Both the position numbers and the translations under genes were made by a program. This document shows positions 308 to 13,085 of a stretch of 64,000 bases of DNA, in pieces. Origin of the DNA: an uncultured Latescibacterota bacterium (GTDB lineage Bacteria; Latescibacterota; UBA2968); assembly GCA_958295785.1 (NCBI GenBank), contig OY282377.1, forward strand, positions 3,846,896 through 3,910,895. The letters are read 5' to 3'. The notes under the pieces were generated by a model. The model was not told where the DNA came from, did not search any database, and saw nothing but the letters and a program-made list of their open reading frames with translations. The stretch's first letter is position 1. Each line of letters opens with the position of its first letter.

Positions 308-817
308 ATGGTTCGCACATCTATCACACTCATTTTTTGCGCCTTGCTGATCGGTTGCAGCGACGATACCCAATACCAAGCCGAACTTCGCGGAACCTGG
401 TTTTTGGAATCGCGCAAAATCGCCCCGGATGAAATCGTCCAGAGTCCCAAAATCAGCGGCCTCATCGAATGGTTTCCAACAGCGCCCAACCAAGCGCAAG
501 TCCATCTTTCCGTGACGGACAACAGACAGAGCATTCGGGTTATCGACCGCAGGTATGATCTTCAGGACGCGGCATTTACCTATCAATCCAAACTCAGAAT
601 TGGATCCGTGTCAGAGCAGATCTCCGATGACATGTACGACACGACACCTCAAGAAGGCACCGGGCAAATCACCTCTGACGATGCGCGCGTCACCCTCACC
701 CACGACAATGGAACGCAGTTTGAATTTATCGGCCCGCAACTCACTGTCACCTATCCAAATGGCGTGGTCGATACGTGGAAACTCAACAAAGACCAGAAAG
801 GCGTGTTGGCAAAATAA
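308..817 (+). CDS. Small putative lipoprotein of unknown function
   Basis: A 169-residue protein that begins with a short hydrophobic segment ending in the lipobox-like LLIGC (Cys at about residue 17). This predicts a lipid-anchored envelope protein. The rest is polar and beta-rich in character (repeated T/V/Y alternation) and ends in an NGVVDTWKL-like stretch typical of small lipocalin/META-like folds, but I cannot assign a family. The start is supported by AGGAGATTCCT just upstream of the ATG. It lies 231 bases upstream of the solute-binding gene cluster in the same direction. That gap holds no complete gene. Confidence 0.6.
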   Translation: MVRTSITLIFCALLIGCSDDTQYQAELRGTWFLESRKIAPDEIVQSPKISGLIEWFPTAPNQAQVHLSVTDNRQSIRVIDRRYDLQDAAFTYQSKLRIGSVSEQISDDMYDTTPQEGTGQITSDDARVTLTHDNGTQFEFIGPQLTVTYPNGVVDTWKLNKDQKGVLAK

Positions 818-1048: not shown

Positions 1049-3583
1049 ATGTTGCAAAATATTCGCAGTATCTTCGTTCTCACCCTCGCCGCGGGCCTGA
1101 TGTGGCATTGCGGCGGCGAGCGCGTGACCCAATCGCAGACCGAGACGACAGGCCCCCCGCTGGGCAAATTGACCGCACGCGGCGCATCCCAAGCCGCGGT
1201 CGTGGTCAACCTGTCGCAAGATGGCGCGCCCGTGAGCGGTGCGACAGTAGCGTTCTCGCGCTCCATTGCCGGTCAGACCGCGTCGTATCAGTGGTCTGGA
1301 ACGACGGATGAAATGGGGCGTGCGCGTGTGGAAATCGCGTCGGCCAATGTGACGGGCTACTATCTCGCCCGCGCCATGCAAGCCGGGAGCGAGATCGGTT
1401 CGTGGTCGAGCATCCCGATCAACAGCGGCTACGAGGTGATGCTCAATTTGCCTATCGGCGGAAAGGCGCGCGTGACCGCATCATCAAAAATCACGAGCGA
1501 GACCCCCATTGGCCTCGTGGTGCCGCTGACGGGCAGCCTGGCTTCGACGGGCATGACAGTAAAAAACGGCTTTGAACTCGCACGCGAGGAAATCAACCGT
1601 TCACCCCTGCTCAACGGGACAACCCTCAAATTTATCATCGAGGACGACCAGAGCACCGCAGCGGGGGCCGTTGCCGCTTACACAAAGTTGATCGATCAAG
1701 ATGGCGTGTCTGCCATCCTCGGCCCTTTTACCTCGAGCATGACCCGAGCGGCCTTTCCCATCGCCCAAGAAAACGAGGTCGTGGCGATCAGTCCCACCTC
1801 TGCCGCGCGTGGCCTCAGCGCGATAGGCGCTTACGTCTTCCGCGCCAGCCTCACTGTAGATAGGCTCATCCCCAGCGGCGTCAAAACGACCCAAGCGGCC
1901 TTGGGCTATCGGCGCGTGGCAACCATATACGACAGTGACGACGTCTTTTCCCAAAGCAGCGATGCGGTGCTCAAGGAAGCATTTATGGACAATGGCGTGG
2001 AGGTGCTGACCACCGAGACCATCCAAACCGGCGATACGGACTTTTCCGCGCAACTCATGCGGATAAATGAGCTGAATCCCGACGCCATCTTCGTCTCTGC
2101 GTTGCCCACAGAGGCGACCAATATTTTGATCCAAGGTCGGCAACTGGGTATTCCCACCAAAGTACCCTTTATCGCGAACCTGACCTTGACCCCCAGCGAA
2201 ATCCAGCGCGCGGGGGCCGCCGCCGAGGGGGCGATTGCGTTTACCGCCTGGAGCAGCACGGCGGATACCCCGGGCAATCGCGCTTTTGTCGAAAATTACC
2301 GCGCAAAATTCGGCAGTGACCCCGATGCGTTCGCCGCGCAAGCCTATACCGCGGTCCACATCTTGGCGCGCGCCATCGCCACTGCCTCATCGACCGATGC
2401 GAGCGCGATTCGGGACGCGCTGGCAAAAATCGGGAATATGGACACGGTTTTGGGTTCGTTCTCATTTGACGACAATGGCGATGGGGTTTACGATCCGGCT
2501 GTCCTGATCGTCAAGGATGGCGAACTCGAGGTTTTCAAGCCGTCGCCCAGCGTGATTTCCATTGGCCTCGTCCCGCATCTGACGGGGCCATTCGCCGAGA
2601 CCGATTTGCAAAACGCTGCGGAACTGGCTCTCGCCGAGATCGACAAGTTGCACGACAAGGCCATATTCAAGTTCATCGTCGAAGACAGCCGGAGTACCCC
2701 AGCGGGCGCGATTGCGGCTTACGACAAACTGATCGCCCAAGGCGTGCAGGCCATCCTCGGCCCTCGTAACTCAACGGTGTTCCGCGGGGCTCTTGCAGTC
2801 GCGCAAGAAAATGGGGTCGTGGCGATCAGCCCCACCTCTGCCGCGCGTGGCCTCAGCGCGATGGGGGATTATATCTTCCGCACCAGTCTGACGGTGGACC
2901 GGCTCATCCCCAGCGGCGTACAGACCACGCAAAAGGCCCTCGGCTATCGGCGCGTGGCGACAATATTCGACAGCGGGGATGCCTTTTCCCAAAGCAGCGA
3001 TGCGGTGCTCAAGGAAGCATTTATGGACAATGGCGTGGAGGTGCTGACCACCGAGACCTTCCAAACGGGCGATACCGATTTATCCGCGCAATTGACGCGC
3101 ATAAAGGAGATGAATCCCGATGCCATTTTTGTCTCGGCCCAAGCGACGGAAATGACGGAGGTTCTGATCCAGGGGCGGCAACTGGGCATTCCCAGTGAGG
3201 TGCGTTTTATTGCAAATCTGATCCTGACCCCCGAGCAAATCCAAAGCGCGGGTGCCGCCGCCGAGGAGGTAATCGTATTTACCGCATGGAGCAGCACGGC
3301 GGATACGCCGGGCAATCGCGCCTTCGTCGAGAATTACCGCGCGAAATACGGCGGCGAACCCAATGTGTTTGCCGCGCAATCTTATGCCGCGGTCTATATT
3401 CTCGCAAAGGCCCTGGGCACTGCCTCATCGACAGATGCGAGCGCGATTCGGGACGCCTTGGCGGCGACAATGGATTTGGACACAGTCTTGGGCAAATTCT
3501 CTTTTGACGCCAATGGCGACGGGATATACGACCCGACGATACTGATCGTCAAAAATGGCAGACTCGAGGTTTTCAAGCCGTAA
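1049..3583 (+). CDS. Double-domain periplasmic ligand-binding protein (branched-chain amino-acid type)
   Basis: An 844-residue exported protein. Residues 1-24 form a signal sequence ending at Cys in LMWHCGG, an unusual lipobox. Residues about 25-145 form an Ig-like or carboxypeptidase-regulatory-like beta module (DGAPVSGATVAFSRS). Two complete leucine/isoleucine/valine-binding-type domains (Peripla_BP_6) follow at about 146-490 and 497-844. Each starts with an (I)GLV..LTG strand and contains ISPTSAARGLS, the ligand-site loop of this family. The two domains are nearly identical over long stretches, for example around 1947-2022 and 2983-3059, which indicates recent internal duplication or gene conversion. 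AAAGGAGATTGTA precedes the ATG. No ABC permease or ATPase is adjacent, so a role as orphan receptor or sensor is as likely as transport. Confidence 0.8.
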   Translation: MLQNIRSIFVLTLAAGLMWHCGGERVTQSQTETTGPPLGKLTARGASQAAVVVNLSQDGAPVSGATVAFSRSIAGQTASYQWSGTTDEMGRARVEIASANVTGYYLARAMQAGSEIGSWSSIPINSGYEVMLNLPIGGKARVTASSKITSETPIGLVVPLTGSLASTGMTVKNGFELAREEINRSPLLNGTTLKFIIEDDQSTAAGAVAAYTKLIDQDGVSAILGPFTSSMTRAAFPIAQENEVVAISPTSAARGLSAIGAYVFRASLTVDRLIPSGVKTTQAALGYRRVATIYDSDDVFSQSSDAVLKEAFMDNGVEVLTTETIQTGDTDFSAQLMRINELNPDAIFVSALPTEATNILIQGRQLGIPTKVPFIANLTLTPSEIQRAGAAAEGAIAFTAWSSTADTPGNRAFVENYRAKFGSDPDAFAAQAYTAVHILARAIATASSTDASAIRDALAKIGNMDTVLGSFSFDDNGDGVYDPAVLIVKDGELEVFKPSPSVISIGLVPHLTGPFAETDLQNAAELALAEIDKLHDKAIFKFIVEDSRSTPAGAIAAYDKLIAQGVQAILGPRNSTVFRGALAVAQENGVVAISPTSAARGLSAMGDYIFRTSLTVDRLIPSGVQTTQKALGYRRVATIFDSGDAFSQSSDAVLKEAFMDNGVEVLTTETFQTGDTDLSAQLTRIKEMNPDAIFVSAQATEMTEVLIQGRQLGIPSEVRFIANLILTPEQIQSAGAAAEEVIVFTAWSSTADTPGNRAFVENYRAKYGGEPNVFAAQSYAAVYILAKALGTASSTDASAIRDALAATMDLDTVLGKFSFDANGDGIYDPTILIVKNGRLEVFKP

Positions 3584-3609
3584 ACAGGGGCAGTTGATAA
3601 GAGGTCGCC

Positions 3610-5130
3610 ATGTTGAAAAGCATTCGCAATATCGCTGTCATCGCCCTCGCCGCGGGCCTGATGTGGCACTGTGGCGGCGAGCGCGTGACCCAATCGCAGA
3701 CCGAGACGACAGGCCCCCCGCTGGGCAAATTGACCGCGAGCGATTCCGCATCGCAAGCCGTGGCGATGGTCAATCTGACGCGAGATGGCGCGCCCGTAAG
3801 CGGTGCTATCGTGGAGTTCTCGCGCTCTATCGCCGGGCGGTCAGCCTCATATCAGTGGTCCGGAATAACCGATGCGATGGGGCGTGCGCGGGTGGAGATC
3901 GCGTCGGCCAATGTGACGGGCTACTATCGGGCGCGTGCCTTACAAGACAGGAGACCGGCCGGATTGGGCGGGAGCATTAGCCGGATCGGTTCGTGGTCGA
4001 GCATCCCGATCAACAGCGGCTACGAGGTGATGCTCAATTTGCCTATCGGCGGAAAGGCGCGCGTGACCGCATCATCAAAAATCATGAGCGAGATCCCCAT
4101 TGGCCTCGTCGTATCGCTGACGGGTAGCCTTACTTCGACGGGCATTCCGATAAACAATGGCTTTGAACTCGCGCGCGAAGAAGTCAACCGCTCATCCCTG
4201 CTCAACGGGCCGCGCATCCGATTCATCATTGAGGACGACCAGAGCACCGCAGAGGGGGCAATCGCGGCTTTCAACAAGTTGATCGATCAAAACGTGTCTG
4301 TGGTCCTCGGCCCTTTTACCTCGACTATGGCCGCCGCGATTTTTCCCATCGCGCAAGAACATAGGGTGGTGGCGATCAGCCCGACCTCTAACGCGCCCGG
4401 CCTCAGCGCGATAGGCGATTTTGTCTTTCGCACCAGCCTGCCAGTGGATCGGCTTTTGCCCAATGGGATTGCGACCACGCAACAGGCCCTCGGCTATCGG
4501 CGCGTGGCAACAATACACGACAAAGACGATGTCTTTTCCCAAGGTAGCGACGCGGCGTTCAAAAAAGCATTCAGAGATAACGGCGTCGAGGTGCTGATCT
4601 CGGAAACCTTTCAAACGGGCGATACCGACTTTTCCGCGCAACTGACGCGCATAAAAGCGGCGAACCCAGACGCCATCTCCATCTCGGCTTTGCCCACCGA
4701 GATACCCGAAATTATGATCCAAGGCCGCCAACTCGGTATTCCCTTTGAGATTCCCTTTATTTGTCCCACCCTGGTCATGGGCGAAGTGCAACGCGCAGGT
4801 GACGCCGCCGAGGGGGCAATTACCATCGCGCTTTGGAGCGAAAAGGCCGATACCCCGGGCAATCGCGCCTTCATCGACAATTATCGCGCGAAATTCGACG
4901 GCGAACCCGATGCGTTTACCGCACAGGCTTATACCGCTGTCCATCTTCTAGGCAAGGCCATTGCCGATGCCCAATCGACGGAGGCGAGCGCGATTCGAGA
5001 CGCCCTATCCGCGATCCGCGATGTCCCCACGGTTTTGGGCAACTTCTCTTTCGACGATGGTGGCGACGGGATTCACAACGCGATCACCCTGACCGTCAAG
5101 AATGGCAAATTCGAGGTTTTCGATCCATAA
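3610..5130 (+). CDS. Single-domain periplasmic ligand-binding protein, paralogue of the neighbours
   Basis: A 506-residue paralogue. The first about 160 residues (signal sequence, Cys in LMWHCGG, Ig-like module) are almost identical to the genes on either side, apart from a 10-residue insertion (around DRRPAGLGGS) in the linker. One Peripla_BP_6 domain follows, with ISPTSNAPGLS at the usual ligand loop; it is more diverged than the two domains of the preceding gene. The gap to the upstream gene is 26 bases, and 13 bases separate its stop from the next ATG, so the three are probably one operon. The start has GAGGTCGCC upstream. Confidence 0.8.
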   Translation: MLKSIRNIAVIALAAGLMWHCGGERVTQSQTETTGPPLGKLTASDSASQAVAMVNLTRDGAPVSGAIVEFSRSIAGRSASYQWSGITDAMGRARVEIASANVTGYYRARALQDRRPAGLGGSISRIGSWSSIPINSGYEVMLNLPIGGKARVTASSKIMSEIPIGLVVSLTGSLTSTGIPINNGFELAREEVNRSSLLNGPRIRFIIEDDQSTAEGAIAAFNKLIDQNVSVVLGPFTSTMAAAIFPIAQEHRVVAISPTSNAPGLSAIGDFVFRTSLPVDRLLPNGIATTQQALGYRRVATIHDKDDVFSQGSDAAFKKAFRDNGVEVLISETFQTGDTDFSAQLTRIKAANPDAISISALPTEIPEIMIQGRQLGIPFEIPFICPTLVMGEVQRAGDAAEGAITIALWSEKADTPGNRAFIDNYRAKFDGEPDAFTAQAYTAVHLLGKAIADAQSTEASAIRDALSAIRDVPTVLGNFSFDDGGDGIHNAITLTVKNGKFEVFDP

Positions 5131-5143
5131 ACAGGAGGCAGTT

Positions 5144-7573
5144 ATGTTGAGCAACATTCGCAGTATCCTCGTTCTCACCCTCGCCGCGGGCCTGATGTGG
5201 CACTGCGGCGGCGAGCGCGTGACCCAATCGCAGACCGAGACGACAGGCCCCCCGCTGGGCAAATTGACCGCACGCGGCGCATCCCAAGCCGCGGTCGTGG
5301 TCAATCTCTCGCAAGATGGCGCGCCCGTAAGCGGTGCGACAGTAGCGTTCTCGCGCTCCATTGCCGGGCGGGCAGCGTCCTATCAGTGGTCTGGAACGAC
5401 GGATGAGAACGGGCATGCGCGTGTGGAGATCGCGTCGGCCAATGTGACGGGCTACTATCTCGCCCGCGCCATGCAAGCCGGGAGCGAGATCGGTTCGTGG
5501 TCGAGCATCCCGATCAACAGCGGCTACGAGGTGATGCTCAATTTGCCTATCGGCGGAAAGGCGCGCGTGACCGCATCATCAGAAATCATGAGCGAAATTC
5601 CCATTGGCCTCGTCATGTCCTTGACGGGACGAATAGCCGCGACCGGGACGACCATGAAAAATGGCCTTGAAATGGCCCTCGAAGAAATCAATCGCTCGGG
5701 CATGCTCGGCGGGACAACCCTCAAATTCATCATCGAAGACGACGGGGGCACGATAGAGGGTGCGGTTGCCGCTTACACAAAGTTGATCGAGCAAGATGAC
5801 GTGTCCGTGGTCATCGGTCCCTTTAGCTCAAGCGCGACCAAAGCGGCCTTTCCCATCGCCCAAGAAAATGGAGTGGTGGCGATCAGCCCGACCTCTGCGG
5901 CGCGTGGCCTCAGCGCGCTCGGGGATTATCTCTTCCGCATCAGCCTCACTGTTGACGCGCTGTTGCCCGGCGGCGTTGCAACAACGCAAAAGGCCCTCGG
6001 CTATCAACGGGTGGCGACCATCATCCAAGCTGCCGATGCCTTTTCCCTCAGCAGCGACGAGGTGTTCAAAGACGCCCTTCGCGCAAACGGCGTGGAGGTG
6101 CTGACCACCGAGAGCTTCCAACCGGATGGGGTCGACGACTTGTCCGCGCAATTGACGCGCATCAAAGCCCTGAATCCCGACGCCATCTTTATCTCGTCCC
6201 AGCCGCCCGGGCGGGTTCAAATTCCGATTCAAGCCCGGCAACTCGGCATTTCCAAGGACATTCCCTTCCTCGTCACCCTGATGACCATAGACGACGTCCT
6301 GCAAGCAGATCCGGCGGCCGAGGGTTCAATTAGTTTTACGACCTGGTCCAACAAAGCCGACCCACCGGGCAACCGCGCTTTTGTTGCGAAGTTCCGGGAG
6401 AAATACGGCTATGAACCCGCCGCGTTCACGGCGCAATCCTATGCCTCGCTCTACATTCTGGCGCAGGCCATTGCCGATGCCAAATCCACCGATGCCCACG
6501 CCATTCGAGCCGCGCTGACCGCGATTGATCTATCGACCGTTTTGGGCCAATTCTCGTTTGATGCCAATGGCGACGCGGTTTATGACCCGATCATCCTGAC
6601 CGTCGAGAACAGTAAATTTGAGGTTTTTGATCCGCAGATGAGCACGGGCGAAAAACGCCTGCTCAATATGGGCTTCTACGCCTTTTTCGAGCCGCTCAGT
6701 TACAGCGCAAATCCCGACCCGATGGCCCCTGGATTTAAGGAACACCGCGGCTATGAAGCGGATCTGTTGACCGCGCTCGAAGCGATGAAAGGCGAGAATT
6801 TGGCTTTTGTTCGACACCCGATAGCCGAGTGGCCCAATATCTGGTTGAAACCCACGGAACCACAATACGATCTGGTCGGCGGCGGGATCACGATTCTCGA
6901 TTCTCGAACCCGAGACGCCATGGGCAACCAAGTGATCACCTTTACGTCGGGCCATATCACCTTTCGCCAGTCGCTTCTGGTGCGCGCCGACGATGCACAA
7001 CGCCTTGCCAGCCATAGCGATTTGACCAGCGATGTGCGCGTGGGGGTTCTCGCCGGCACCACGGGAGAGGCCCGCCTGCTGGAACTGACGGGTCTCGTCA
7101 ATGACATGGGCATGCTGGCCGCCGGTGTGCGCGTGGAAACCGCGCAGGACACTGTGGTTGCCGATGGCAGCGCGGATTACGTCATTACCTCTGCGGGGGC
7201 ATCTCCTGTGTTGATGGGGCGTCGCCTCCTTCACCCACCTTCGGAAACCATGCCGCAAGTGGTTTATTTGGGCGACGAGACCGGCGAAACCGCGTTGCTC
7301 AACGCCCTGCGCGATGGCAACATAGACGCCGTCGCCCGAGGCGAGATTGGCAACCGCACCGCCGTTCAAAATTTCGGCAACGCCTTTGCGGTGACAGCCC
7401 TTGACCCTCAAATTGAACTCGGTGGATTTGCAGTGTCAGCGGAAAATACCGCGCTGCTCACCTTCCTCAATGAGCGGATCAACTATCTGACGGACAATCG
7501 CCGCATCGGCTATGCAGAATGGCTGGCCGATCCCACGGTGTTCACGCGCCGCGCCGAGATGTGGCCGCGTTAG
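5144..7573 (+). CDS. Hybrid ligand-binding protein: Peripla_BP_6 domain plus SBP family-3-like domain
   Basis: An 809-residue exported protein. I place the start at the ATG at 5144, which follows ACAGGAGGCAGTT and matches the N-termini of both paralogues; an in-frame ATG at 5102 would only add residues overlapping the previous gene. The order is signal/LMWHCGG, Ig-like module, Peripla_BP_6 domain (to about residue 490), then a C-terminal domain of about 310 residues. That last domain resembles extracellular solute-binding protein family 3: an N-terminal strand with a GYEADLL helix, a central VGVLAGTTGE hinge, and a terminal NERINYLTDNRRIGYAEWL helix. The third paralogue has thus replaced the second Peripla_BP_6 unit with an unrelated binding fold. 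A strong terminator follows. Confidence 0.8.
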   Translation: MLSNIRSILVLTLAAGLMWHCGGERVTQSQTETTGPPLGKLTARGASQAAVVVNLSQDGAPVSGATVAFSRSIAGRAASYQWSGTTDENGHARVEIASANVTGYYLARAMQAGSEIGSWSSIPINSGYEVMLNLPIGGKARVTASSEIMSEIPIGLVMSLTGRIAATGTTMKNGLEMALEEINRSGMLGGTTLKFIIEDDGGTIEGAVAAYTKLIEQDDVSVVIGPFSSSATKAAFPIAQENGVVAISPTSAARGLSALGDYLFRISLTVDALLPGGVATTQKALGYQRVATIIQAADAFSLSSDEVFKDALRANGVEVLTTESFQPDGVDDLSAQLTRIKALNPDAIFISSQPPGRVQIPIQARQLGISKDIPFLVTLMTIDDVLQADPAAEGSISFTTWSNKADPPGNRAFVAKFREKYGYEPAAFTAQSYASLYILAQAIADAKSTDAHAIRAALTAIDLSTVLGQFSFDANGDAVYDPIILTVENSKFEVFDPQMSTGEKRLLNMGFYAFFEPLSYSANPDPMAPGFKEHRGYEADLLTALEAMKGENLAFVRHPIAEWPNIWLKPTEPQYDLVGGGITILDSRTRDAMGNQVITFTSGHITFRQSLLVRADDAQRLASHSDLTSDVRVGVLAGTTGEARLLELTGLVNDMGMLAAGVRVETAQDTVVADGSADYVITSAGASPVLMGRRLLHPPSETMPQVVYLGDETGETALLNALRDGNIDAVARGEIGNRTAVQNFGNAFAVTALDPQIELGGFAVSAENTALLTFLNERINYLTDNRRIGYAEWLADPTVFTRRAEMWPR

Positions 7574-7710: not shown

Positions 7711-8946
7711 TCAGAGATGTTTCAAAATGTCTTTAACGCTACCTTTGGGATCGGTGACATCAAATGGAAAGCAAGACAAAGACAAGTCCTCATCAAACTC
7801 GTACCGCAACATCTCTCGAAATTGCGCTGTCTTGGGATAGACGAGCGCGACCTGTTTGCAGCGATACTTTTTGCCATAAGCGAACAACTGGTACACATCG
7901 GCTTGGTTAATGCCGTGCTTGCTGTCATTGCCGTTTTCGTTAACGCGCTTCCATTTGGTGTCGAGGATAAATTTTGTTTTGCCATCGGACATCAGGCTGA
8001 TATCCGGTTTCATAAAAAAAACATCGTTGCCCCGAATGCGGGCTAACGGTTCTTTCGGCCCCTGCTCGCGCACGGAAAACTGTCGCTGATACCGCCGAAA
8101 ACACGTTGCGACAAAATCCTCAAACACATCCTCCATCGGAAACAACAAGGTCTGGTTGACGTGTTTGCCGGCAAACGTGGTCAGGCCGCGACCAAACAGA
8201 AACAGCCCGACCCACTGCATCACCGCGTCGTAATGGGACATCGAGCGATCTACCCGGTGCTGTTGCCAGTCGCTTTCAAGTTGGGTTGACGTGGGAATAT
8301 CGGCAAAACAGATACGCAACTGATGGAGCAACTGTTGATTTCTCGACTGTCGTGCGAAACCGATCAGTTTTTGGATGGTGCTGTGAATCAGGCGATTGGC
8401 CGGGCGGTTGGCGGTGAACTCGTCATAGCCGACGTAAAACCGCGCACGGTTGACCGCATTTTCACGAATGTGCTGCGGAAACAGGATCCGCCCGCGCAGG
8501 CAAGGCAGGTTGTCTTCCACCGGTTGATAATTGCGGGCCAGGCCGCGTTGCGTCAGCAGAACGAGGTTGTTCAAAAACAGGTGGACAAACACTTCCAGCA
8601 TATTGAAACGGCGCACGGCGTTGATGTGACTCGCGTTGAACTGCGCCATTTTCTTGAACCCGCGCCAAGTCCGCAGCATGTTGAAGAATACTTTTTTGCT
8701 TTCTTCCTCGTCTTTGGCAAAATCTACCTTCGGCAGAATTTCGAGCACGGTTCCCTTGCGCGTTTCGATAATGCCGACGTAGTTTTGTGCGTGTAGCCCG
8801 TTGTTTTTCAACACCAAAACAGGTCGGTGGTTGCCCTGTCCATCCGTCTGATTGGCAAGGGCAAAGTCCTTCAGATCCCTCAATTCATCTCGGGCGAGAC
8901 CCGCCAGTTGTTCATATTCTTTGACTTTGATAACGGACATCGTCAA
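7711..8946 (-). CDS. mcrC: McrC, nuclease subunit of a McrBC-type modification-dependent restriction system
   Basis: About 410 residues, the usual length for McrC/McrBC family proteins. The C-terminal half carries the PD-(D/E)xK nuclease signature: KPDISL followed by FILDTKWK (Asp ... Asp-x-Lys). McrC is known to join an McrB ring and cut DNA near methylcytosine. The annotated start is a TTG whose last bases overlap the TGA of mcrB (TTGA); an ATG six bases further in is an equally good start. Either way the two genes are translationally coupled. No frameshift is visible, so this copy is probably functional. Confidence 0.9.
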   Translation of the reverse strand: MTMSVIKVKEYEQLAGLARDELRDLKDFALANQTDGQGNHRPVLVLKNNGLHAQNYVGIIETRKGTVLEILPKVDFAKDEEESKKVFFNMLRTWRGFKKMAQFNASHINAVRRFNMLEVFVHLFLNNLVLLTQRGLARNYQPVEDNLPCLRGRILFPQHIRENAVNRARFYVGYDEFTANRPANRLIHSTIQKLIGFARQSRNQQLLHQLRICFADIPTSTQLESDWQQHRVDRSMSHYDAVMQWVGLFLFGRGLTTFAGKHVNQTLLFPMEDVFEDFVATCFRRYQRQFSVREQGPKEPLARIRGNDVFFMKPDISLMSDGKTKFILDTKWKRVNENGNDSKHGINQADVYQLFAYGKKYRCKQVALVYPKTAQFREMLRYEFDEDLSLSCFPFDVTDPKGSVKDILKHL

Positions 8947-11063
8947 GCGTCCTGTTCGGTTTTATCGGCGTCGCCTTGTTCATCTTTTTCGTAGATCGCA
9001 CGGTAACTTTTGGGGTCTTGCCATTTGTCAGAATCAGCCAGCAATTCATAAAAGTTGCGATCCTGATCCATCAAGTCGGATTCCAATAGCAAATTTTCAG
9101 GGGAGACTTTTGAAATAAATCCGTTCTCATTCAAAACCAGCTTGATTTTCTCATAGTTATCGTAAAAGTATTCCTGCAACAGCGGGATGATTTTGGTCTT
9201 GAACGCTTTCTCCAGATCATCCACGCTGTCAACATTGATGAAATACGTGTGTCCGATCTGATGCTCCCGATCAAATAGGAAACGGATGCGGTCATTCATT
9301 GTAGCGAGCAGTTCCTGACAATTCACGCCTTCAACATTCTCACTGATACATTCATGGTTTGAATTCGGCATCATCTCGACGAACTCAAACCGCCGCCTCA
9401 GTGCGGTATCCAACAGGGCGATAGAGCGGTCGGCGGTATTCATCGTGCCGATGAGGTACAGGTTGTCCGGGATGCCGAATAACTTTTTGGAATAGGACAG
9501 CGTAACGGTTGCTTCGTCCTCTCCGCCGAGCCGTTTGGAGGGTTCAATCAGCGTGATCAACTCGCCGAAAATTTTGGCGATGTTGCCGCGATTGATCTCG
9601 TCAATGATCAGGACATAATTTTGATCCTCGTTTTTATCGGCCCGATCAGCGATTCGCTTGAAAACACCCGCTGACAATTCGTATTCAACATTTTTGTTTT
9701 CATCCGACAGAACAGGTCTGATGCCCTCAATAAAATCCTCGTAAGCAAAGTTTTGATGAAACGTCACCATTTCAATCTGGCCTTGCTCTTTCAATTCATC
9801 AAACCGTCCCTTTACATCTTCACGGCCTTCGCGTTCAATCTCCGCCAAAGCCTTGCCCTCGATAATCGCCAGCGCGTGATAGACGGTGTTCCAAGTTTTA
9901 CCGGTTCCCGGCGGGCCGAAAAGAATTTGGTTCAAAGGATGATTCTCAGGTTCAGGGCCGTTTTCTATGGAATTTCTTGTCAGTTTTTTTGTCAAGTCAA
10001 ACGAAGGCTTGTAGCCCTCCATTTTTTCAAAAGCCGAATACGTTCCGCTACCGGCCTCATTAAAACCTAGCGAATCCGTTAGGCCATCCAATTGACTTGT
10101 CGATTTGTTTATCCACAAGACATGAATTGCACCATTTTTGTCAAATCCACCTACTTCGGCATAGTCATTTTTTTTCACTATACCAATCCCTCTTCCTTTT
10201 TGCTTTCCTGTTCTAACTAGAATAACATCCCCTGGCTTGGGTTCTGTCAGGGGATATTTTTTTTTGTTTCCTTCTCCTCCAGTATAAACTTTGTTATTGT
10301 TTTTGAAATCATCCCAATAATCGGTTCCCTTGTTATATACATTAGTGCTTATCTGAAAAAAATTACTGCTCACTTCAGATTTTTGATCAAATTGCAATCC
10401 TAAAAACATATTGATTTCATAAGGCTGACACCCCGGGAACGCCTTCTTAAGTTTTTCCAAAATAGACAGATACTCCCCATAACCACCATCTTTTTTTAGC
10501 CTTTTTATTTTACTCGACAGTGTCGAATCCGGCAGATACTCTGATACAGTCTCAGTTAACGTATCCACGGGAAGGAAATATGTCGGGTTTATCAAAAACA
10601 GAACTTGTGTCAATTTCGGAACGGCAACGTTTGGTATATCCAAAACTTTCTTAAAATCACTTGGATCAATTGTCGGCTTATCCTTTACTGCCTGCCGGAA
10701 CAAACGCCAAAGCAAATCAGGATGAAAGATTTTCTGATTATGAAAAAGAACTGAAGCATCCGACCGGGGAGTGGGAAAGACATAGTAATCATCTATACTG
10801 GCATTCGGGAGCGGACTTTCAATCTCAAATACATCTTGAATATCGTCGTACACTGGTTTCCTTTGGTTACTAGTGCTCTTTTGAGCCAAAAAATAAAAGA
10901 ACGACAAGGGATCAATATTCTCATCGCCATATTGAAGCAAAGGGGGATTTTCATTTTTCCAGTCCATTTGCTTTGCCTTGTTAACCAGATATTCTTTGCC
11001 TTTTGTCTCAATTTTTTTTCCCAACTCTTGAAACCAAGGTACCCAGCTATAAATTTCTTTCAT
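8943..11063 (-). CDS. mcrB: McrB-type AAA+ GTPase, long form
   Basis: A 706-residue protein. Its AAA+ domain holds Walker A GPPGTGKT at about residue 383, Walker B/DEINR in LIIDEINRGNIAKIF, and MNTADRS, the McrB-type guanine-recognition motif. The 380-residue N-terminal region is specific to this copy and contains a GDVILVRTGKQKGRGIGIV segment that looks like a small beta-barrel target-recognition domain; I cannot name it. The ATG follows GGAGATAGTCAA. It forms an operon with mcrC. Its AAA domain is nearly identical to that of the second mcrB at 11386-12810, while the N-terminal parts are unrelated. Confidence 0.9.
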   Translation of the reverse strand: MKEIYSWVPWFQELGKKIETKGKEYLVNKAKQMDWKNENPPLLQYGDENIDPLSFFYFLAQKSTSNQRKPVYDDIQDVFEIESPLPNASIDDYYVFPTPRSDASVLFHNQKIFHPDLLWRLFRQAVKDKPTIDPSDFKKVLDIPNVAVPKLTQVLFLINPTYFLPVDTLTETVSEYLPDSTLSSKIKRLKKDGGYGEYLSILEKLKKAFPGCQPYEINMFLGLQFDQKSEVSSNFFQISTNVYNKGTDYWDDFKNNNKVYTGGEGNKKKYPLTEPKPGDVILVRTGKQKGRGIGIVKKNDYAEVGGFDKNGAIHVLWINKSTSQLDGLTDSLGFNEAGSGTYSAFEKMEGYKPSFDLTKKLTRNSIENGPEPENHPLNQILFGPPGTGKTWNTVYHALAIIEGKALAEIEREGREDVKGRFDELKEQGQIEMVTFHQNFAYEDFIEGIRPVLSDENKNVEYELSAGVFKRIADRADKNEDQNYVLIIDEINRGNIAKIFGELITLIEPSKRLGGEDEATVTLSYSKKLFGIPDNLYLIGTMNTADRSIALLDTALRRRFEFVEMMPNSNHECISENVEGVNCQELLATMNDRIRFLFDREHQIGHTYFINVDSVDDLEKAFKTKIIPLLQEYFYDNYEKIKLVLNENGFISKVSPENLLLESDLMDQDRNFYELLADSDKWQDPKSYRAIYEKDEQGDADKTEQDA

Positions 11064-11091
11064 TTGACTATCTCCGTTTGTGGTGGTCGCG

Positions 11092-11295
11092 CCGCCCTCT
11101 CTGCGGTTGATGCTAACTTAGCGAAGGAGACGCCATGCAATGAATGTGGCAAAAAGATAAATAGGTGGTATGACAAGGGATGTCGTAGGTGATCGAATTT
11201 TTTCAAAAATTCAGATTTTTTTTTGTTCAATGCAACCAATCGTCCGCGAGGCCCATGGCGTTGAGCCAAGCGTCTGAATTGCGTTTGCGCGTTTC
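11092..11295 (-). repeat. Copy 1 of the 'ankyrin-tail plus leader' duplicated block
   Basis: About 200 bases that recur at 12836-13085 and 13813-14050. They contain the last codons of the ankyrin gene (reading ...DAWLNAMGLADD then stop), an A/T-rich hairpin (GAATTTTT/AAAAATTC) and about 100 bases ending CCGCAGAGAGG. The block sits just upstream of a different gene each time: here before the long mcrB. At its far edge it joins abruptly to an mcrC fragment. Confidence 0.8.
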
Positions 11296-11389
11296 GATAA
11301 TGCCGACGTAGTTTTGTGCGCGTAGCCCGTTGTTTTTCAACACCCGCCAGTTGTTCATATTCTTTGACTTTGATAACGGACATCGTCAA
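11296..11389 (-). pseudogene. mcrC scar: first codons plus an internal fragment
   Basis: Bases 11343-11389 repeat the first codons of mcrC (SVIKVKEYEQLAG). Bases 11296-11345 repeat an internal piece of mcrC (around its codons 45-62, LKNNGL.AQNYVGIIETR). The 87 bases between them in the intact gene are missing, which changes the frame, and everything downstream is replaced by the ankyrin-tail block. The TTGA overlap with the upstream mcrB stop is preserved, so this was once a complete mcrBC pair. Confidence 0.85.
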
Positions 11390-12810
11390 GAGTCCTGTTC
11401 GGTTTTATCGGCGTCGCCTTGGTCATCTCTTTCGTAGATCGCACGGTAACTTTTGGGGTCTTGCCATTTGTCAGAATCAGCCAGCAATTCATAAACTGAC
11501 CGCTGTTCATCAATCAAATCCGAGTTTTTGAACAAAGTGGTATCAAAGCCTCTTTCTTTGATAAATCCATTCCCATTCAAAACCAGCTTGATTTTCTCAT
11601 AGTTATCGTAAAAGTACTCCTGCAACAGCGGGATGATTTTGGTTTTGAACGTTTTCTCCAAATCATCCACGCTGTCAACATTGATGAAATACGTGTGTCC
11701 GATCTGATGCTCCCGATCAAATAGGAAACGGATGCGGTCATTCATTGTAGCGAGCAGTTTCCGGCAATTCACGCCTTCAATATCCGTACTGATACATTCA
11801 TGGTTTGAATTCGGCATCATCTCGACGAACTCAAACCGCCGCCTCAATGCGGTATCCAACAGGGCGATAGAGCGGTCGGCGGTATTCATCGTGCCGATGA
11901 GGTACAGGTTGTCCGGGATGCCGAATGGCTCTTTGGAATAGGACAGCGTAACGGTTGCTTGGTCATCTCCGCCAAGCCGTTTGGAGGGTTCAATCAGCGT
12001 GATCAACTCGCCGAAAATTTTGGCGATGTTGCCGCGATTGATCTCGTCGATGATCAGGACGTAATTTTGATTCTTTTTATCGGCCCGATCAGCGATTCGC
12101 TTGAAAACACCCGCGGACAATTCGTATTCAACATTTTTGTTTTCATCCGACAGAACAGGTCTGATGCCCTCAATGAAATCCTCGTAAGCAAAGTTCTGAT
12201 GAAACGTCACCATTTCAATCTGGCCTTGCTCTTTCAATCCATCAAACCGTCCCTTGACCTCTTCACGGTCTTCGCGTTCAATCTCCGCCAAAGCCTTGCC
12301 CTCTATAATCGCCAGCGCGTGATAGACGGTGTTCCAAGTCTTACCGGTTCCCGGCGGGCCGAAAAGAATTTGGTTCAAAGGATGTTTCAGGGGAGATGGC
12401 GGCGACTGACCATCTGCCTTCGGTTTAGGGTCGTTTTCTGGCAAAATTTTCCCACTATGGTCATAGTTGTAACGACACGGATTAGAGGCACTCTTTCTTT
12501 TATATTTATCAGGGATTCGTTTCCCCACATAAAGCTCTTGAATGTCAGAACTGGCTTCGCGTCCGATAAAATAGATACGCCCTGGGTCCTCCGCCGCCTG
12601 CCATTCATCAGCGATAAATGCCGCTTTAATTTCACCATGGAAAGTTGACAAAATGACCTCTGCCTTCTCGGCTCTCGATTTACTGATTCTCCAAGCGGAA
12701 CGGGTTGCCTCATACAACTCTTTCATCGATGCGCTTGTCTTGCCTTGCTGGTTAATTTTTATGAGCAGAACTCGATGGCGAAATTCAGCGACTTCGGTTT
12801 GTTTCTGCAT
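11386..12810 (-). CDS. Second McrB-type AAA+ GTPase, short form with a different N-terminal domain
   Basis: 474 residues from the ATG at 12810, which has the very good site CGAGGAGGAAAA upstream; a longer in-frame reading to 12948 runs through repeated non-coding sequence and is rejected. Walker A GPPGTGKT lies at about residue 151, followed by LIIDEINRGNIAKIF and MNTADRS. The first about 130 residues (YEATRSAWRIS...KAEVILS) form a compact domain I have seen at the front of other AAA or uncharacterised proteins but cannot name. From the Walker A region to the stop it is almost identical to the McrB at 8943-11063. Its own mcrC partner is reduced to a scar, so it probably shares the single intact McrC or is inactive. 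Confidence 0.85.
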   Translation of the reverse strand: MQKQTEVAEFRHRVLLIKINQQGKTSASMKELYEATRSAWRISKSRAEKAEVILSTFHGEIKAAFIADEWQAAEDPGRIYFIGREASSDIQELYVGKRIPDKYKRKSASNPCRYNYDHSGKILPENDPKPKADGQSPPSPLKHPLNQILFGPPGTGKTWNTVYHALAIIEGKALAEIEREDREEVKGRFDGLKEQGQIEMVTFHQNFAYEDFIEGIRPVLSDENKNVEYELSAGVFKRIADRADKKNQNYVLIIDEINRGNIAKIFGELITLIEPSKRLGGDDQATVTLSYSKEPFGIPDNLYLIGTMNTADRSIALLDTALRRRFEFVEMMPNSNHECISTDIEGVNCRKLLATMNDRIRFLFDREHQIGHTYFINVDSVDDLEKTFKTKIIPLLQEYFYDNYEKIKLVLNGNGFIKERGFDTTLFKNSDLIDEQRSVYELLADSDKWQDPKSYRAIYERDDQGDADKTEQDS

Positions 12811-12835
12811 TTTTCCTCCTCGAAAATGTCGCGCT

Positions 12836-13085
12836 ATCCTCTCTGCGGTTGATGCTAACTTAGCGAAGGAGACGCCATGCAATGAATGTGGCAAAAAGAT
12901 AAATAGGTGGTATGACAAGGGATGTCGTAGGTGATCGAATTTTTTCAAAAATTCAGATTTTTTTTGCTCAATGCAATCAATCGTCCGCGAGGCCCATGGC
13001 GTTGAGCCAAGCGTCTGAATTGCGTTTGCGCGTGGCGATGAGGCGCGGCGAGTGCCCGCAGCGATCTGTGTTATTGGGATTCGCC
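12836..13085 (-). repeat. Copy 2 of the 'ankyrin-tail plus leader' duplicated block
   Basis: The longest of the two partial copies. It reproduces the last about 35 codons of the ankyrin gene with several substitutions, its stop, the A/T-rich hairpin and the about 100-base leader. Here it precedes the short mcrB. Similarity to the intact gene fades near 13085, just beyond the stop of the PIN toxin gene. Confidence 0.8.

Follow-up and report, generated by a model that had tools for sequence, protein, structure and literature searches.

The best explanation for three tandem genes at the start of the analysed DNA, and one that we hold to be reasonably probable, is that they belong to a family in which a lineage-specific lipoprotein stem displays exchangeable heads working independently of a permease. 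The genes lie in a window (the whole 64,000-nucleotide stretch analysed here, C1:3846896-3910895) of a one-contig 5.66 Mb genome of an uncultured Latescibacterota bacterium. In the proposed mechanism, a leader and a conserved cysteine would anchor the protein in the envelope through a lipid, a loose linker of ~25 residues would lift it off the membrane, and a transthyretin-like sandwich would act as the spacer joining different heads. Most heads would be amino-acid/amide-type solute-binding domains that presumably bind ligands without the help of an ABC permease, the remainder being SBP_bac_3-like, Cache, spondin, lipocalin-like or enzyme domains, and a new member would arise whenever another head comes to stand behind the stem. 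At the window locus, one ancestral gene would have become three, gene conversion would have homogenised the stems from the start codon to the stem/head border, and the heads would have diverged under purifying selection.

An earlier note on this DNA had described three tandem open reading frames at 1049-3583, 3610-5130, and 5144-7573, and these coordinates were borne out (Table 1). Pfam likewise agreed with its account of what follows the shared front (~148 residues), namely two Peripla_BP_6 heads, one such head, or one plus an SBP_bac_3-like domain. Gene 1 has two Peripla_BP_6 matches (6.6e-119) and genes 2 and 3 have one each (3.9e-63 and 3e-64), at scores of 398, 214.6, and 218.3 bits that all exceed the curated cut-off of 31.7; C-terminal to this domain, gene 3 also matches SBP_bac_3 (2.9e-6; 27.5 bits, cut-off 26.4). 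The description of the fronts as nearly identical holds for genes 1 and 3 (95% protein identity) but is too strong for the pairs that include gene 2 (only 82-84%). Gene 3 most likely starts at 5144 and not at the 5102 ATG of the open reading frame list, because the shared front begins at 5144 and an AGGAGG stands just upstream. Among solved structures, the first head of gene 1 comes closest to the amino-acid binding proteins 4obb and 4nqr (E 1e-40). Of 71 aligned heads, 70 retain a serine in the first motif, and the second motif varies by clade; these positions would line the ligand site, as they do in LivJ-type structures. The structure of gene 3 predicted from its single sequence had a mean pLDDT of 34, and this model was set aside.

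Table 1 Features of the three-gene locus (positions within the window).
Feature	Position	Strand
169-aa gene upstream of gene 1; marker of the same locus in 9 relatives	308..817	+
Gene 1: stem and two Peripla_BP_6 heads, 844 aa	1049..3583	+
Gene 1 stem, residues 1-148: leader 1-20, cysteine 21, loose linker to ~45, beta-sandwich ~49-147	1049..1492	+
Gene 1, first Peripla_BP_6 head	1505..2488	+
Gene 1, second Peripla_BP_6 head	2555..3520	+
Gene 2: stem and one Peripla_BP_6 head, 506 aa	3610..5130	+
Gene 2 stem; nine-residue insertion relative to the stems of genes 1 and 3	3610..4083	+
Gene 2, Peripla_BP_6 head	4090..5106	+
Gene 3: stem, Peripla_BP_6 head, and SBP_bac_3-like domain, 809 aa from the 5144 start	5144..7573	+
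Gene 3 stem; 95% identity to the gene 1 stem	5144..5587	+
Gene 3, Peripla_BP_6 head	5594..6589	+
Gene 3, SBP_bac_3-like domain; on a separate stem gene in relatives	6668..7504	+

The stem is built, in order, of a hydrophobic leader, the conserved cysteine, the loose linker, and the beta-sandwich. Every stem in two alignments (46 and 21 sequences) has the cysteine, which is usually followed directly by GGER. A canonical lipobox reads L-A/S-G/A-C; among 103 stems captured with a rough pattern, position -1 is G in 40, N in 26, S in 17, and H in 11, and position -2 is W in 74, which makes the lipobox atypical, and lipidation is something we infer. Judged from the leader and the cysteine, the stem is probably anchored by a lipid in the envelope. 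A structural model of the stem built from 7 sequences (mean pLDDT 79) places ~25 low-confidence residues after the cysteine, followed by eight high-confidence strands. The best structural match of this sandwich is transthyretin (Z 10.8 over 98 residues, rmsd 3.1), with Foldseek TM-scores against transthyretin of only 0.38-0.47 (normalised by query) and sub-threshold Pfam scores (at most 24.6 bits against 34.9 for Big_1, and at most 25.2 against 32.3 for CarboxypepD_reg). Since two Peripla_BP_6 proteins carry a stem-type leader and cysteine directly before the head, with no sandwich between them (L135:6779-7912 and L115:12753-14159), the sandwich looks like an optional spacer.

The order of parts, i.e., lipid anchor, sandwich spacer, and binding head, is also that of the Bacteroidetes SusE/F and SGBP proteins; the heads are here solute-binding, sensor, or enzyme domains, and the likeness noted is one of arrangement. 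The short recurrent motif behind the cysteine (GGER) similarly resembles the Bacteroidetes lipoprotein export signal, but the strict WxCGGE motif is in this genome confined to stem genes. A role for GGER as a general export signal is unsupported: all seven matches of the strict WxCGGE DNA pattern in the genome are at stem genes, with a reversed control giving one match.

A search for the N-terminal module elsewhere in the genome, as the earlier note had suggested, recovered eight genes with the stem, including the three in the window. The other five carry Peripla_BP_6 heads (two in tandem and one single), an esterase (PHA-depolymerase-like), and a cytochrome c. Across the phylum, the front was matched in at least 30 of 64 genomes, and the full front in at least 18, all within two families of one order among the matches listed. 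The other matches in the class, among those listed or fetched, consisted of the sandwich part only, and families f5-f10 had no front match in any of their 17 genomes, among the matches listed. In several of the sandwich-only proteins, the sandwich adjoins a C-terminal FlgD_ig domain, often behind Cache domains.

We then considered 115 open reading frames with the module or its sandwich, drawn from the window and from fetched loci that represent part of the matches listed. For the 109 with ≥100 residues behind the module (the six shorter ones were omitted), the C-terminal parts formed nine unrelated clusters, to which head families were assigned from cluster representatives (Pfam/NCBIfam). The largest cluster includes 81 proteins with Peripla_BP_6 or SBP_bac_3 heads, which fall together because gene 3 carries both; SBP_bac_3 is the only one of the two in 7 of these 81. 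The others correspond to Cache (8 and 3 proteins), spondin (7), lipocalin-like (5, a weak match at 19.5 bits against a cut-off of 22.4), and NigD_C-like heads (2, also weak at 19.3 bits against 22.6), and to one protein each with a cytochrome c, an esterase, and an SGL head. A Cu/Zn superoxide dismutase (SOD) domain was detected in two tested Peripla_BP_6 proteins, and the same terminal motif was seen by eye in eight others. The earlier wording of a receptor set is thus too narrow, because esterase and cytochrome c heads also stand behind this front in the present genome, as do spondin, lipocalin-like, and SOD-bearing heads in relatives. Separately, three headless open frames of 174-175 aa with little beyond the stem were noted among the matches listed (G016:C14, G005:C161, and G001:C10).

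Phylogenies were built from 104 of the 115 open reading frames in the larger tree set, and topology tests used 53 chosen rows. In a tree of 43 chosen heads, stem-bearing heads fell into three distant groups with stem-free heads interspersed, long branches being present. A single clade of stem-bearing Peripla_BP_6 heads was rejected (p-AU 1e-5; 43 chosen heads, group named after earlier trees, long branches). For a head type of 385 residues common to genera g1 and g6, heads group together and stems do not: a single clade of the corresponding stems from the two genera was rejected (p-AU 0.0005; group named after earlier trees, long branches), and a clade uniting the stems of the 385-residue type and of Cache proteins within genus g1 was compatible with the data (p 0.44).

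The main rival to this reading, and a possible one, is signalling. Here, the Peripla_BP_6 members would be TorT-like sensory receptors signalling the presence of ligands to TorS-like kinases, and the stem would be a tether or docking part, a proposal that we regard as fairly unlikely. This proposal draws on a passage of PMC3795677 reporting that TorT binds TorS, on the presence of Cache, a sensor family, among the heads, and on sister-family genomes devoid of PF02653 permeases. It also draws on three genomes of genus g6 (G015, G016, and G017); in these, a TorS-like kinase, preceded by a stem-free Peripla_BP_6 gene and a SpoIIE-type response regulator, is followed ~75, 75, and 192 bp downstream, on its own strand, by a gene for a stem and a Peripla_BP_6 head. 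Against it, the stem gene at the kinase locus is decayed in a fourth genome (G018), and in this genome and four others (G001, G002, G004, and G008) the unit of TorS-like kinase, stem-free Peripla_BP_6, and SpoIIE-type response regulator includes no stem gene; in both of those tested, an ammonium transporter follows. A kinase match was obtained at only 5 of 79 stem loci, four being the g6 kinase locus and one being weak, with one kinase as the query so that others could be missed. No TorS-type kinase adjoins the window genes in the stretches searched, and the lone TorS-like kinase of this genome has a stem-free partner of its own next to it. Nor does a sensory role fit the esterase, cytochrome c, and SOD heads. 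The check for partner kinases or permeases proposed in the earlier note was positive for a kinase at one type of locus only, in genus g6, and negative for LivH/LivM permeases near the stem genes in the stretches searched.

The arrangement resembles TorT/TorS in that a kinase with a TorS sensor domain has an adjacent Peripla_BP_6 gene, the next gene encoding a stem protein in three genomes; it differs in that the majority of stem genes lie away from any such kinase and that the response regulator is of the SpoIIE type. TorS models match these kinases far below the equivalog cut-off. Taken together, the three g6 genomes point to a more specific role for the member beside the kinase. An extended proposal, in which the stem would be the constant part of a plug-in receptor repertoire, lipid-tethered, kept uniform by conversion, and docking to a shared envelope partner (possibly a TorS-like kinase), seems unlikely to us; if true, exchangeable heads would add senses without adding transporters. 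At a set of related loci (L121, L122, L114, L123, and L131-L134), we also observed a conserved group of a SpoIIE-type regulator, a small HATPase_c_2 gene, a Peripla_BP_6 gene, and a TorS-like kinase, with an ammonium transporter in those tested.

A second rival is that these are ordinary binding proteins for ABC import that share an unlinked permease. By sequence, their head domains are like those of HAAT binding proteins (LivJ/UrtA-type, Peripla_BP_6), i.e., they match amino-acid and urea binding proteins, four PF02653 proteins are encoded in this genome, this genome and those of genus g1 have PF02653, and a binding protein can serve a permease encoded elsewhere. In contrast to HAAT proteins, however, a shared stem stands in front of the head, no LivH/LivM-type permease is near, and sister genomes are without PF02653. 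The transporter search was directed at PF02653 permeases of the LivH/LivM type and at one kind of ABC ATPase. It agreed with the earlier remark that no transporter genes are near: in this complete genome, no PF02653 match lies closer to the window genes than ~240 kb, and LivH, LivM, and ATPase queries had no match within the window's first 30 kb or up to 14.9 kb upstream, in searches with no LivH/LivM positive control. Cognate permease genes close by in related contigs, which according to the earlier note would mark these as ordinary transport proteins, were sought and not found, with LivH/LivM matched at 0 of 79 stem loci.

Two of the four PF02653 proteins, moreover, adjoin a stem-free binding protein beside urease that scores above the UrtA cut-off (576 bits against 477), while the window genes are far below the UrtA and LivJ-type equivalog cut-offs (best scores of 227.7 against 477 and 149.4 against 492.75 bits). 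For 10 of the 11 genomes in the genus, coordinates put a PF02653 permease no more than a few kb away from the top-scoring Peripla_BP_6 gene among the matches listed, and in 12 genomes, several with fragmented assemblies, none was within 50 kb of a stem on the same contig among the stems listed. Five sister-family genomes with stem proteins have no PF02653 match at all (0 of 5), and encode 13, 14, 15, 11, and 6 Peripla_BP_6 domains among the matches listed; import by the usual partner is thus unlikely in these genomes, and unsupported in the genome studied here. Overall, we consider the shared-permease explanation very unlikely. The ABC ATPase query gave 10 matches at the 79 stem loci, of which four were strong, all at SBP_bac_3-type loci. 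Judged by eye, these ATPases are probably exporters; Pfam returned nothing for the one neighbouring membrane protein tested beside them.

Solute-binding proteins are routinely annotated as parts of transport systems. In the stem family, the fold is kept where no LivH/LivM-type permease was found, so that permease-independent use becomes testable, and the stem offers a simple sequence marker for such proteins. We recognised no description of this family in the titles and opening abstract lines of papers on Latescibacter lipoproteins or sponge-symbiont genomes, orphan binding proteins, TorT/TorS, and conversion of lipoprotein fronts; term searches found no place in PMC12993501 and one in PMC7081726, on ABC transporter abundance.

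Next, we evaluated the contrast between fronts and heads through synonymous changes, a check that the earlier note had proposed. Among genes 1-3, synonymous divergence (dS) was 0.10-0.31 in the front against 0.68-0.84 in the head. For pairs 1-3, 1-2, and 2-3, respectively, front dS was 0.10, 0.31, and 0.22 and first-head dS was 0.75, 0.68, and 0.84 (Fisher p = 5e-14, 0.0003, and 1e-8), corresponding to within-genome front/head ratios of 0.13-0.45. The step is located near codon 150-160. Genes 1 and 2 display patchy low-dS stretches (codons 1-40 and 121-160), hence conversion tracts fit better than a single fusion. As a control, 28 ortholog pairs from 8 relatives gave front/head dS ratios of 0.48-1.69, with p < 0.05 in two pairs, once in each direction, which indicates that the front is without synonymous constraint. 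In nine pairs of window genes with relatives, the ratio was at least 0.98, and the front was significantly more diverged in one. Since the dS gap disappears between genomes, we conclude that recombination within the genome homogenised the fronts, and these comparisons support gene conversion having kept the fronts of genes 1-3 alike while their heads diverged. The alternative that the fronts are alike merely through recent duplication and strong purifying selection on the front, with no gene conversion, is consistent with genes 2 and 3 having joined a locus at which 10 relatives have a single stem gene, but it is extremely improbable, as selection alone is ruled out by the step at synonymous sites (same Fisher tests) and by the front being synonymously unconstrained between genomes, and the low-dS stretches of genes 1 and 2 are patchy.

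The earlier suggestion of a modular set whose front is kept uniform by conversion hence stands for the modular build and for recombination in genes 1-3, but uniform fronts are not a general rule. Within tandem arrays of g6, a genus of the sister family, stems mostly group with orthologs from other g6 genomes and not with their neighbours, from which it follows that homogenisation there is old or weak and that front uniformity does not extend across the lineage. The dS step combined with the between-genome control provides a clear natural case in which the constant and the variable part of one bacterial gene evolve separately.

Ten other genomes of the genus have a recognisable counterpart of the window locus, marked by an upstream dehydrogenase-like gene (in 10) and the 169-aa gene (in 9), the latter having no match in the Pfam search. 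In each of these relatives, the fetched stretch holds one stem gene at the locus, with two Peripla_BP_6 domains in five, one in four (one of which has a stop codon within the front), and a contig end cutting the remaining one. Gene 1 therefore corresponds by position to this single gene, and genes 2 and 3 were added. In seven relatives, a separate stem gene matches the SBP_bac_3-like portion of gene 3, and no such separate gene is among the eight stem genes of this genome. Within gene 1, identity between the two heads (1505-2488 and 2555-3520) rises from 42% in the first 40 codons to 88% in codons 121-160, and the second head groups with the head of a g6 stem and SOD protein in the tree of 43 heads. 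Conversion or shuffling may perhaps also have taken place inside gene 1, between its heads.

Several neighbouring observations are of separate interest. On the minus strand of the window (7711-12948), there are one gene for McrC and two for McrB-like AAA proteins, with 95% likeness over a 300-nt block and an McrC remnant in between; this region reads as a restriction system that was duplicated in tandem and has partly decayed. The cytochrome c stem gene is directly followed by five ATPase-like genes in tandem (~520 aa each), whose starts are very similar (L046:2334-10850). Finally, ~9 kb upstream of gene 1 (L050:5445-9455), a 1336-aa protein consisting largely of WD40 repeats is encoded, adjoining a 492-aa dockerin-bearing protein.
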